Shown: in pieces, positions 38,301 through 42,470 of the stretch
How positions within the stretch are numbered: the first letter of the stretch is position 1
How the letters are laid out: each line of letters opens with the position of its first letter
IMG/VR virus record: IMGVR_UViG_3300042691_040273
Span: 1 to 54,507 of that record
Source of the DNA: a virus
DNA: 54,507 nucleotides
Direction: 5' to 3' (one strand)
Notes under the pieces: generated by a model
Database searches by the model: none
Told to the model about the DNA's origin: nothing
What the model saw: the letters and a program-made list of their open reading frames with translations, nothing else
Made by a program: the position numbers and the translations under genes

Positions 38301-40577
38301 TTATAAAACATATAAATAATCTCTCTTTTCAACGAACAATTTTGCAATTTCAGGACTTTCTCTAAAATTTCTCATAATTGGGTCAACAAAACCATCTTGA
38401 GCCTTAAACGACAGATTAACATTCACATCTTTTTTGGTACTTTCCCCCTTTTCAAGAGATGTTAACAGTTTTTCAAATTGACTTTGAAACATATCCATAT
38501 TTGGACTTTTATTGATAAATTCACTTGCTCTATTTTTTGCAATTGTATTTTGTTCTATACCTGTGACGTTTTTAACTAAAGTATCCTTATTTATTTGTGA
38601 ACTTAAATCTGTTGTTATAGTTTTTATATTATTTTGAGCTACTCCAAAATTTTGTAAATTTTTATTAATTGCATCCAATAATTTATTCGACTCACTTGTA
38701 TTTGTTGCAATATCAGAATTTATTTTTATTGTACTGTCTTGTTTAGTGTTATAAATATTTAACACATCATTAAATGCCATTAATGGGGCAGATTCAATAT
38801 TTTTTTGTGGTTCTGGTTTTTGTATACCTGCCGTTGGTTGATTTGGTGTAACATTTGGTGTAGTTGTATTTGATTGTTGTGTTGGTTTTGCTTCCGTTGT
38901 TGTTTTTTGTCCACCCGCTTCGTTACGTTTACCTAAATTTTTGAAAGCTTCAGTAATTTTTGTTTCACTACCTTCAATATATTTACCAACACCCTTCGAC
39001 ATTTCTAAAGTCGCTTTTGCTAAATCACCCTCTTTATAACCAAATTGTTCTGATACCATTTTAAACAATTCATCCGCTGTTTTACCACCTGTTTTTCTAA
39101 TCATAGCTGTCATAAATCTTACATCTCTGCTAATATTTTGTACAGATGTTGCTTGATTTCTAATTATTTCTTCAGGTGATGCTTTTTTAAATTGTTCCTG
39201 ATATGATAATAAGGTACTTAATTGGTTTTGTGTTAATTCATCTATAGCTACTTCAGATTTTCCAAATACTTTTATTAATTCAGGTGATGTACCCAATTCA
39301 ACTACCATTCTACCGCCTTTCATTTGCGCTATATTAGTAATAAATTCTTTTTGTTCATCATTTATTTGTAAACCTCTTGCCATCAAATCTGTACTTACTT
39401 TAGTTCTTTCTGCAGCCGCAATTGCACCTTTAGTTAACTCACTAAATTCGACACCCAATTGTGCTGCCATTTCTTTTGCTCTTCTTAAGTTTAAACCAGT
39501 AATTTCAAATCTACCTTGTTCTGAATTATACGTTGCCAATGTACTTGCAGCACCAATAAGAGCATCTTGTAGTCCCTCAACATTATTTGTTGCCATATAC
39601 ATCAACTTCAACGGGTCATTAAAATCTCCTATAGCACCACCTAATACTTGTAGATTTGCCGATAATTCTAAAGCACCTTCAGGATTCATAACCTTTTCTG
39701 CAATTTTAAATGCTTCATTCATACTCATTCTAAACTCAATGGACTTTTGAACCATTCTTGTCAGACCTTCAACACCATTTTTAAAACCGTATTCATTTAT
39801 TTTTCCTAAAGTAGTTTTTAATTCATTTGCAACTTTTCTTGATTCTAAACCTAATGCTGTAGATTTTGCACCTGCATCTGCAATTCTTTCTGCAGCATCC
39901 GCAGCACCTAAACCAATTTGTGCAAAAATAGGATACATACCAACTAAATCCGCTAATGTTCCAAGGTATGCTTTAGAAACTTCACCTGCTCTTTCCCATG
40001 TTTGTTGATTTGTAATTGCAAACTTTCCTGAATCATTTACTAATGTTTTTGCCGAACTTGCTAATTCATCAAAACTAATACCTAATTGTTCTAATCTTGG
40101 ATTTGCATCTGTTAATGCACTTCTAAAGTCTTTTGAATATTGTGATGTTAAACTAGTGCCTTCATTAATTGTGTTTAGAAGTGACGTTTGCTGATTTGTG
40201 TATATTAATATTTGGTCAAATGCTTTTTCCATGACATTTGCACCAAATTGTTGTAAAGTAACAATTTTATTATTTTTATCAATTAATAAATCAAAACCTT
40301 CATTTAATGCTGTTACATCATCAATACTTGGCATTCTGCTTTCAGTAGATGATGTAAGTAGTTTTCTTGAAAATTCTAATATATCGAATTTTTTTTCATT
40401 ATTGTTGTCTAATCCTAAATTACTTGTCGCAGTTGAAGTTTTATTACCATACTTCATGTCCCAAAAATTACCTAAAATTTCTCTTGTATCTGTTGAGCCT
40501 TCTTTTTGTGCTTCACGTATAAAATCAGTTTTATTTTTAAATTTATCTCGTAATTCATTTAATCTTTCTATATTCAT
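38301..40577 (-). CDS. Tail tape measure protein (gp29-like role)
   Basis: 758 aa, almost entirely helical. The central part (~200-480) is rich in Ala, Lys, Glu and Leu with amphipathic helices such as LGAADAAERIADAGAKSTAL and MAAQLGVEFSELTKGAIAAA, typical of tape measure proteins that fill the tail tube and set its length. A Thr/Pro/Gln-rich flexible stretch (~555-600) separates it from a helical C-terminal region. No lytic transglycosylase motif is seen. It lies directly downstream of the gp26-like chaperone and its overlapping +1-frame extension, the arrangement found upstream of tape measure genes in most tailed phages. T4 gp29 is 590 aa, so a somewhat longer tail is expected. Confidence 0.85.
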   Translation of the reverse strand: MNIERLNELRDKFKNKTDFIREAQKEGSTDTREILGNFWDMKYGNKTSTATSNLGLDNNNEKKFDILEFSRKLLTSSTESRMPSIDDVTALNEGFDLLIDKNNKIVTLQQFGANVMEKAFDQILIYTNQQTSLLNTINEGTSLTSQYSKDFRSALTDANPRLEQLGISFDELASSAKTLVNDSGKFAITNQQTWERAGEVSKAYLGTLADLVGMYPIFAQIGLGAADAAERIADAGAKSTALGLESRKVANELKTTLGKINEYGFKNGVEGLTRMVQKSIEFRMSMNEAFKIAEKVMNPEGALELSANLQVLGGAIGDFNDPLKLMYMATNNVEGLQDALIGAASTLATYNSEQGRFEITGLNLRRAKEMAAQLGVEFSELTKGAIAAAERTKVSTDLMARGLQINDEQKEFITNIAQMKGGRMVVELGTSPELIKVFGKSEVAIDELTQNQLSTLLSYQEQFKKASPEEIIRNQATSVQNISRDVRFMTAMIRKTGGKTADELFKMVSEQFGYKEGDLAKATLEMSKGVGKYIEGSETKITEAFKNLGKRNEAGGQKTTTEAKPTQQSNTTTPNVTPNQPTAGIQKPEPQKNIESAPLMAFNDVLNIYNTKQDSTIKINSDIATNTSESNKLLDAINKNLQNFGVAQNNIKTITTDLSSQINKDTLVKNVTGIEQNTIAKNRASEFINKSPNMDMFQSQFEKLLTSLEKGESTKKDVNVNLSFKAQDGFVDPIMRNFRESPEIAKLFVEKRDYLYVL

Positions 40578-40610: not shown

Positions 40611-40814
40611 TCATGAACTTTCCAATTCAATCATATATTCAATATAATATGTTCTAACATAGATTGGCATATTCATAATATCACTATATGAAAACCCTCT
40701 TTTAACCAAAAACAATATTTCCGTAAGTTGATTTTTCTTATAATCCCCAGAAAGGGCGAAAAAATTCGACCCCAAATCCAAGTTTGAATTGGATTTCTTC
40801 TCCTGATGGGGCAA
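40611..40814 (-). CDS. Overlapping small reading frame, probable frameshift extension of the gp26-like protein
   Basis: 67 codons from the first in-frame ATG, but its first 25 codons overlap the end of the gp26-like gene in the +1 frame, and that part looks like frame shadow. The convincing portion is the last ~48 residues: ALSGDYKKNQLTEILFLVKR followed by GFSYSDIMNMPIYVRTYYIE, a compact helical segment with the (Y)-x-(D/E)-(I/V)-x-x-MP-x-x-x-R-x-(Y/W) pattern seen in C-terminal parts of phage tail assembly chaperones. It could be reached by a +1 shift at 40756-40764 (giving a ~291-aa fusion) or by internal initiation at 40814. It ends 33 bases before the tape measure start. Confidence 0.6.
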   Translation of the reverse strand: MPHQEKKSNSNLDLGSNFFALSGDYKKNQLTEILFLVKRGFSYSDIMNMPIYVRTYYIEYMIELESS

Positions 40815-41487
40815 TTACTTTTTGATTTAAATCTAATCCTGGTTTATGTTCTTCAACATATTTTCTGAAATCTTGTGAATCCTTAATAGGAAGATTATCA
40901 ATAAAATGTCTAATGTTGATACCATCTCTGTTACCTGCAACAGATTTAATCATAAATTCTAATTCCTTAGTTTTAATTGGAGCAATTCCAATTCCATTCC
41001 AACTTTTACCAATCTCAATAATTTCATTTTCTTGTCTTTGATTCATGAATTTGAAAGTAATATCCACATTACTTTTTGGCATTGTAAATGGATATTCACC
41101 GTTTGAATCATGAATTAATGTAAATGGTTTGAAACTTAAACTAGAAATATCAATTTTAGTTTCAAATTCTTCATTTGTTTTTGGGTCTACAAGTCTAACA
41201 TTATATTCACTACCAAATGCAGTATTTCTTAAAAATATCAAAATTGCTTGCTTATCCTCTTCAACTAAATCATTAACATCAATATCTCTATCTAAAACTT
41301 TCCTTTTTAACAACTCTGATACAACGGTATTTGATTGTATTAAGTTAGGTGATGATAAAATATTTTCATCTGATGCTGTCAAATATGCCACCCTTAAAGA
41401 TTTCTTACCATTTTTATAATGTATACCTCTACTTGGTAATTCTACTACATCATAAGCAATTGATGGGTCTATTCTAAATTCTTCCAT
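40738..41487 (-). CDS. Tail/baseplate-hub assembly protein, gp26-like
   Basis: 249 aa beginning MEEFRIDPSIAYDVVELPSR, which with the following NGKKSLRVAYLTASDENILS resembles gp26-type hub/tail assembly proteins of T4-like phages (T4 gp26 is 208 aa). The fold looks like a small beta domain (20-130) plus helical C-terminal half; EFMIKSVAGNRDGINIRHFI (~180-200) is typical of tail chaperones that recognise the tape measure. It lies between the tube-like gene (6-base gap) and the tape measure. Its last codons are F-F-R-P-F-W-G-L, and the +1 frame at that point continues for another 48 sense codons, see the frameshift candidate. It acts in the cytoplasm during tail assembly and is probably not abundant in virions. 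Confidence 0.75.
   Translation of the reverse strand: MEEFRIDPSIAYDVVELPSRGIHYKNGKKSLRVAYLTASDENILSSPNLIQSNTVVSELLKRKVLDRDIDVNDLVEEDKQAILIFLRNTAFGSEYNVRLVDPKTNEEFETKIDISSLSFKPFTLIHDSNGEYPFTMPKSNVDITFKFMNQRQENEIIEIGKSWNGIGIAPIKTKELEFMIKSVAGNRDGINIRHFIDNLPIKDSQDFRKYVEEHKPGLDLNQKVIAPSGEEIQFKLGFGVEFFRPFWGL
40756..40764 (-). other. Candidate programmed +1 frameshift site (TTT TTT CGC)
   Basis: In the gp26-like frame the minus strand reads TTT TTT CGC. A Phe-tRNA on the second TTT can re-pair perfectly with TTC one base downstream, and the next zero-frame codon CGC is a rare Arg codon in this A+T-rich genome, a classic +1 context. The +1 frame then gives Ala-Leu-Ser-Gly-Asp-Tyr and continues 48 codons. 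The zero frame stops 6 codons after the site. Confidence 0.5.
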
Positions 41488-41493
41488 AATATT

Positions 41494-41913
41494 TTATTTT
41501 TTAATTGTTTTTTCTACTTCTTTTTTGATTTCACTATATAATGTCATAGATTCTGCATCAACAATAATTTTTATATCATTCATTTGTAACTCACTATTAG
41601 CATAAGACTGTTTTCTGCTAAAATTAATCCCTTTGATTTTGAATCTTAAACCACTTATCGCATCACCAACAGGGTCTAAATATTTTATAATAACATCTGT
41701 GATATCAAAAATACTTTTAGGATTGAATGTATAATTGCATGTTTCATAGAATCTTGTCATAAAAATAAAATCAGTACCTTCATTATGTAATGAATATTCC
41801 TTAAATGAGTACGAAGGTATGTCACTACCTATTAATTCAATAATATACCTGTTTTCCATTAATGGTTCAATTAATATACCAGAACGCATTATATCAATCT
41901 CTTTATTTTCCAT
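41494..41913 (-). CDS. Tail-tube-fold paralogue
   Basis: 139 aa. The order of elements is that of a gp19-type tube protein: an ENRYIIEL first strand (NRF-I-V-x-F equivalent), a variable loop, strand pair around FIFMTRFYETCNYTFNP, a helix with DVIIKYLDPVGDAISG, then FKIKGINFSRKQSYANSELQ and a final strand pair. It is shorter than the true tube protein (162 aa) and divergent. It starts 68 bases after the tube gene, past a terminator, and ends 6 bases before the gp26-like start. In T4 the tube-fold proteins gp48 and gp54 cap the baseplate end of the tube; a similar tube-initiator role is inferred here. Confidence 0.65.
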   Translation of the reverse strand: MENKEIDIMRSGILIEPLMENRYIIELIGSDIPSYSFKEYSLHNEGTDFIFMTRFYETCNYTFNPKSIFDITDVIIKYLDPVGDAISGLRFKIKGINFSRKQSYANSELQMNDIKIIVDAESMTLYSEIKKEVEKTIKK

Positions 41914-41981: not shown

Positions 41982-42470
41982 CTAATACACCTGTATACAA
42001 CGGTCCATACGAAGAGTACAATCTATTGTTGCTAATTCATCTTGAGAATAGTTCAAATCACCGAAGTTTAAATCTGTGATGAAACATCCTTCCAATATCC
42101 ATTTTTCAACAACAACACCTGTTGGGTCAAGCATCTCAAGAATAACATTCTTTTTATAACCTGCTGCATAACCCATTCTACCTGTTACTGATTCAGCATG
42201 TAAACGGAACCATTCCATTAACGCTTGTGATGCAGAAGGACCAATTGGGTCTTTAAATTGAACTTTAATTGCATCCCAAGTGAACCTACCTGCAACATAT
42301 GTTGAAGTATTTAAAAATGGAATTTCAACATCTTTAATTTTAGCTGATGGTCTTGATGTTGATGTAACATACCACTCATTAATGCCCAACGATGAATCAA
42401 ATCTAACAATGAATCTGTTTTTCCTTTTTGGTTCATATGGTGTGGGCATTTTCATTAGTAAATCTGCCAT
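41982..42470 (-). CDS. 19: Tail tube protein, gp19-like
   Basis: 162 aa, essentially the size of T4 gp19 (163 aa). Family features: KRKNRFIVRFDSSLGINEWY at the N-terminus, a RPSAKIKDVEIPFLNTSTYV loop, the WDAIKVQFKDPIGPSASQAL strand-turn, EWFRLHAESVTGRMGYAAGY helix, and the C-terminal LEGCFITDLNFGDLNYSQDE strand pair. Hexameric rings of this protein stack to make the DNA conduit inside the sheath. It is flanked by its own long upstream region and a strong terminator, consistent with very high, separate expression. Codon use is visibly more G+C-rich than in the giant tail genes. Confidence 0.95.
   Translation of the reverse strand: MADLLMKMPTPYEPKRKNRFIVRFDSSLGINEWYVTSTSRPSAKIKDVEIPFLNTSTYVAGRFTWDAIKVQFKDPIGPSASQALMEWFRLHAESVTGRMGYAAGYKKNVILEMLDPTGVVVEKWILEGCFITDLNFGDLNYSQDELATIDCTLRMDRCIQVY

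Follow-up and report, generated by a model that had tools for sequence, protein, structure and literature searches.

The viral DNA analysed here, 54,507 nucleotides from an IMG/VR record and referred to below as the window, carries tail genes on its minus strand in the order sheath, tail tube (gp19 family), a 139-aa gene, a gp26-family gene and a 758-aa gene. A programmed +1 frameshift at TTT TTT CGC, close to the end of the gp26-family gene, had been proposed earlier from the letters of this stretch (the original prediction). Its coordinates were right, with the features on the minus strand: the gene runs from 41487 to 40738, TTT TTT CGC from 40764 to 40756, and the +1-frame stop ends at 40611. 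The features are as follows:

38301..40577, minus strand: next gene, 758 aa, in the tape-measure position (open reading frame; position after the tube and the gp26-like gene)
40611..40758, minus strand: +1-frame extension, 48 codons from GCC plus a stop, which would be joined to the slipped Phe (open frame; pN/pS; phrog_150)
40611..41487, minus strand: predicted 291-aa fusion, the putative long tail assembly chaperone, frame 0 then +1 (translation with a +1 step at TTTC)
40738..41487, minus strand: gp26-family gene, short tail assembly chaperone, frame-0 product of 249 aa (open reading frame; PF12322, 1e-06; phrog_150, 2.4e-09)
40756..40764, minus strand: predicted shift site TTT TTT CGC (sequence; UUU_CGN in 51/51 clade members)
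40770..40773, minus strand: GGGG run upstream of the site, a possible stimulator (GGG invariant in the window clade)
41982..42470, minus strand: tail tube gene (gp19 family), upstream (PF06841, 2.4e-07; phrog_4542, 5.7e-31)

The gp26-like gene matches PF12322 (T4_baseplate) with 29.1 bits against a curated cut-off of 24.5, and its relatives in SP-15, GXN1 and RM378 score higher than the window gene. It also matches phrog_150, which is annotated as baseplate hub. We folded the window short form and a T4-like gp51. The AlphaFold model of the short form has a pLDDT of 87.8, and a baseplate hub subunit of SP-15 was among its best viral matches. No solved structure resembling the short form or the T4-like gp51 was found by sequence, and none resembling the short form was found by fold. 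A search of bacterial genomes turned up no relative. The gene is placed between the tail tube gene and the gene in the tape-measure position, as in G/GT-type chaperone pairs. The 758-aa gene was assigned as the tape measure by position only, with no family match at the curated cut-off; in isolate relatives a tape measure is annotated at the corresponding place. The 139-aa gene between tail tube and chaperone (41494-41913, minus strand) has no Pfam or PHROG match, and the immuto and SP-15 annotations show no such gene at the corresponding position.

In frame 0, the 3′ end of the chaperone gene reads GGG GTC GAA TTT TTT CGC CCT TTC TGG GGA TTA TAA. The +1 frame, read through TTT TTC GCC, runs without a stop until 40611 and adds 48 residues after Phe-Phe (ALSGDYKK...IELESS). 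Computing the open frame thus reproduced the predicted continuation of 48 codons and the fusion of 291 aa, and alignments of this fusion to its relatives run through the extension. The three features of a UUU_CGN +1 site are present, namely UUU in the P site, a rare CGN codon in the A site and an open +1 frame. CGC accounts for 3 of 16,304 codons in the larger ORFs of the window (0.18 per 1000 codons), and an in-frame TTT followed by CGN occurs once in the 17,157 codons of window ORFs of at least 100 aa, at the shift site itself. Three codons before Phe-Phe, the Gly codon is GGG in 51/51 window-clade loci, while 5% of the window's Gly codons are GGG; across the window clade, the block GGGGTnGAnTTTTTTCGnCCTTTCTACGGA hardly varies. 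The distance from GGGG to the slipping codon is 8 nt. No stable RNA structure was found downstream of the shift site, and a small predicted hairpin, in which GGGG pairs with CCCU, comes without covariation to judge it by. Sites of +1 frameshifting often have no downstream RNA structure. A Shine-Dalgarno-like stretch within 20 nt was absent from 24 of the 25 larger window genes and no tRNA genes were found in the window, which suggests a host of Bacteroidota type.

We gathered relatives from IMG/VR and phage isolates by clade-wise searches. The window clade comprised 51 distinct loci, the set around Flavobacterium phage immuto and Microcystis Mel-JY01 (immuto clade) 81, and a group made up of Bacillus SP-15, Listeria LIS04, Streptococcus GXN1 and Rhodothermus RM378 (SP-15 group) seven loci. 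In each of the 139 distinct loci the extension is in the +1 frame and begins at the same Phe-Phe or Phe-Leu codons, and each shows a conserved 3′ overlap with an extension ORF in another frame, as in G/GT-type pairs; since the loci have common ancestry and were retrieved by their similarity, these counts are not independent and show conservation, not independent events. Finding the same +1 extension at the same place in all of them is far above chance. Conservation of site and overlap among relatives had been put forward as the check on the original prediction, and it was borne out. In the window clade all sites are UUU_CGN: 39 have CGC and 10 CGU, one is UUC_UUU_CGC, and one has CGA (TTT TTT CGA in locus L079). 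The immuto clade has UUU_UUU_UGG in 57 loci, UUU_CUU_UGG in 17 and other sites in seven (CUU_UAC, UUU_UUC and CUA variants), and the sites of the SP-15 group are UUU_CGU, UUC_UUU_CGU and UUC_UUU_CAU. In each site, one codon of the pair or both could re-pair as UUU_Y or CUU_U once shifted by +1. The frame break is present in the isolate genomes of immuto, SP-15, LIS04, Mel-JY01 and RM378.

Two further observations concern individual records. In L003, a 251-kb contig, Phe-Phe reads straight into the extension, with five T's and a single frame there; the contig has several other indels inside its gp26-like gene, and sequencing errors are probable. Isolate annotations near the +1 extension list small hypothetical proteins instead of the fusion (L005, 3827-3937; L008, 3797-3916; L004, 3728-3964).

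Beyond the frame-0 stop, the extension in the window clade has a pN/pS of 0.24 in the +1 frame versus 1.3 in each other frame; the body of the frame-0 gene has 0.32. Synonymous diversity in the last nine scorable codons of the gene is 0.24 of that expected, compared with 0.75 for the body, and the last 9-codon segment has the lowest synonymous variability among the 136 segments scored in this clade. Judged by pN/pS, purifying selection maintains the extension as a protein sequence in the +1 frame and in no other.

T4 gp26 and gp51 are paralogous and match PF12322 with 8.8e-64 and 3.9e-52, respectively. On phrog_150, which has 282 positions, T4 gp26 covers 14-235 and T4 gp51 13-280, while the window short form covers 17-233 (38.0 bits) and the fusion 17-272 (49.2 bits). 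The fusion thus matches further and better than the frame-0 product alone, and by reaching position 272 of 282 it has the gp51-type C-terminal extension of a long form. Fusion profiles aligned end to end between the window clade and the immuto clade (E 8e-45), the window clade and the SP-15 group (4e-18), and the immuto clade and the SP-15 group (1e-27). The SP-15 group profile in turn aligned with the cyanophage −1 fusion (1.5e-7), and the cyanophage fusion with T4 gp51 (2.9e-13). Because direct profile comparison of the window-clade fusion with T4 gp51 was not significant (E 0.36), the link from the window to gp51 runs through these intermediate groups and phrog_150. In the predicted structures, the T4-like gp51 has three C-terminal helices (208-248), and the window short form ends where one such helix starts (240-243).

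As judged from these sequence comparisons, the window extension corresponds to the C-terminal extension of T4 gp51, with gp51 being the long and gp26 the short form of one chaperone, made from two paralogous genes. This reading agrees with published T4-like chaperone work as cited in PMC10885494 and PMC12846349. Those two papers refer to Vladimirov, Gautam and Davidson 2022 for gp26/gp51 as T4-like tail assembly chaperones, and credit them with the two-gene form and the polyT −1 signals; going by these citations, both the chaperone identity of gp26/gp51 and −1 shifts in T4-like phages are already published. The original prediction had set the separate gp26 and gp51 of T4 apart from two-product chaperones made by frameshift. 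The genes are indeed separate, but they are paralogous and encode the short and the long form. PF12322 is present in two copies in T4 and Klebsiella RCIP0020 and in one copy in phages with the frameshift. We found one copy in the 54.5-kb window fragment and in two clade contigs, and thus not the two-gene arrangement of the T4 type. That Mel-JY01 and immuto have no PF12322 match reflects profile sensitivity, not absence of the gene.

The frame relation in the window is +1 (or −2), and the classical −1 form of the G/GT pair was not found there. In T4-like cyanophages, the short form ends with TTT TTC Gnn TAG and continues in −1 via T_TTT_TTC in all distinct loci examined; the heptamer and a conserved −1 extension were found in Synechococcus phage ACG-2014g (L180, 1971-2872) and in L186-L224. 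The annotated 31-aa 'gp51' of ACG-2014g is only the tail of its −1 extension. Vibrio Va3 and Stenotrophomonas Moby have the same T_TTT_TTC heptamer together with an ATG that overlaps the stop, and the jumbo phages Agrobacterium Atu_ph07 (L013) and LR756511 (L012) are also −1. Klebsiella phage 0507-KN2-1 (L181), from 2744 onward, has an extension resembling gp51 in the −1 frame that overlaps the end of the gene, but no clear slippery heptamer accompanies it. When the tree is rooted at its midpoint, the +1 rows group together; Atu_ph07 falls next to this cluster and LR756511 within it. The long branches of this tree make the number of direction switches uncertain. It is likely that a mostly uncultured, large T4-type lineage makes its long chaperone by +1 shifting at sites that vary by group (UUU_CGN, UUU_UGG, CUU_UGG), with sister lineages using −1 at the same Phe-Phe or two genes.

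Alternatively, the extension could be a small gene in its own right, with translation beginning at a start codon such as the TTG at 40814 or re-initiating once the frame-0 stop is passed. This TTG is the only start codon before the site in the window +1 frame. It lies well upstream and its position is not conserved, in keeping with the original view that the extension has no convincing start of its own, although a TTG upstream in the +1 frame is found in the window and in 32 of the 51 clade members. Missing Shine-Dalgarno pairing proves nothing here, as nearly all window genes lack it. Relatives in which a separate gene has its own start had been named in advance as evidence against a frameshift. 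Those that were found belong to other lineages only: T4 and RCIP0020 each carry two complete genes, and in Va3 and Moby the ATG overlaps the stop. The window clade yielded none. About 41 of the 139 loci have no ATG, GTG or TTG from the previous +1 stop up to the site; that stop lies 1-3 codons before Phe-Phe in many of them, and directly before it in some. Where a start is present, its position varies (−4, −6, −8, −12, −14 codons and others). The start-less loci and the varying positions argue against a separately initiated gene, as does the homology to the long chaperone, which runs across the junction, and we consider such a gene very unlikely.

Transcriptional slippage at the T run would fuse the frames through mRNAs one base shorter or two longer, and the six T's at the window site, seven in many relatives, would suit it. 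However, the T run is broken while the frame relation is kept in TTT CTT TGG (17 loci), TTT CTT TAC, TTC TTT CGC/CGT and TTC TTT CAT, and slippage would not need the strong constraint seen on the A-site codon (CGN, UGG), which makes it highly improbable. A −2 ribosomal shift would reach the same frame with one more residue. The frame alone cannot separate it from +1, and some apparent +1 cases are −2 (such cases are discussed in PMC10885494). Re-pairing after a −2 move is possible on TTTTTT but poor in the TTC TTT CGN and TTC TTT CAT variants, and UUU_CGN with a rare A-site codon is a known +1 context (PMC5009743, PMC7230728); we regard a −2 shift as very unlikely. The break might also come from faulty assembly or sequencing, or from a recent mutation, in an otherwise single-frame gene. 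L003 is single-frame at this point, but the break occurs in all 139 distinct loci, from many metagenomes as well as isolate genomes, and the chance of such an origin is negligible.

A programmed +1 frameshift at TTT_TTT_CGC, as originally proposed, is the best explanation for the conserved site, overlap and extension, and we put the probability that it yields a 249-aa short and a 291-aa long chaperone at about 90%. We judge the frameshift to be real, conserved and almost certainly programmed, and its direction is most likely +1. The site, the overlap, their conservation, the coding constraint on the extension and the match to the long-form profile were observed directly; from sequence we infer that shifting takes place in cells and that it is +1 instead of −2. 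Most ribosomes would read to TAA and produce the 249-aa short chaperone, like T4 gp26. In some ribosomes, peptidyl-tRNA-Phe would be on the second UUU in the P site with the rare CGC waiting in the A site, and the P-site tRNA would slip one base forward, from UUU to UUC. GCC would then be next in the +1 frame, giving the 291-aa long chaperone, whose extra C-terminal domain would correspond to that of T4 gp51. The upstream GGGG may stimulate shifting, and the long form may, like lambda gpGT, connect the tape measure with the tail tube.

Most frameshifts described in tail chaperones to date are −1. The lambda G/GT −1 frameshift and its conserved version in long-tailed phages are attributed to Xu, Hendrix and Duda 2004 in PMC5009743, which describes the frameshift as conserved in long-tailed phages 'except T4' and HSTV-2 as likely using +1. 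The window resembles lambda G/GT in the gene just upstream of the tape measure, the 3′ overlap, and a short product with a C-terminally extended longer one, but the predicted shift is +1, not −1, there is no in-phase X_XXY_YYZ heptamer, and the protein belongs to the T4 gp26 family (PF12322). With T4 it shares this family, the frame-0 product corresponding to gp26 and the long form to gp51, whereas T4 has two paralogous genes and the window one gene with a predicted frameshift. The overlap of T4-like cyanophages involves the same gene, the same Phe-Phe position and the same extension domain; it differs in being −1 on T_TTT_TTC, with the 31-aa 'gp51' listed in the ACG-2014g record.

For HF1 haloviruses, a +1 shift at TTT-CGC was proposed for the tail chaperone (PMC7230728). 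The HF1 group and HSTV-2 share with the window a proposed +1 site, UUU_CGC, located where the chaperone gene ends ahead of the tape measure (PMC7230728, PMC5009743). They are, however, archaeal viruses with a proposed shift, and their protein matches phrog_14268/12163; no similarity of the HF1-group chaperone to phrog_150 was detected. UUU_CGN is also the known +1 motif of influenza A PA-X and amalgavirus (PMC5009743, PMC7230728), with the same slip codon and a CGN A-site codon, but on eukaryotic ribosomes and in unrelated genes. In Flavobacterium, a prfB CUU_UGA +1 frameshift site with a Shine-Dalgarno-like stretch is known (PMC8710568). There, CUU slips +1 onto UUU, the immuto-clade CUU_UGG is similar, and a G-rich stretch likewise lies upstream, but the window has no A-site stop codon, and 8 nt separate its G run from the slip codon, compared with 3 nt in prfB. 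In 0305phi8-36, chaperones encoded by two paralogous genes have been noted (PMC2147016).

Shifting by +1 in gp26-family chaperones appears to be new: no report of it was found in the literature searched, an absence that is not proof. Current annotations miss or shorten long-form chaperones, as in immuto, SP-15 and ACG-2014g. The window and its relatives would provide a bacterial system for the UUU_CGN motif of eukaryotic viruses, in hosts that probably barely use Shine-Dalgarno pairing. This one homologous family, in which +1 and −1 shifting as well as two-gene arrangements occur at one and the same codon position, would allow the study of how the direction of a programmed frameshift changes while the protein pair stays constant. 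If the lineage-wide +1 reading is true, a single site in one homologous gene has changed its shift direction in situ, and selection would keep the pair of products and not a particular mechanism for making them.
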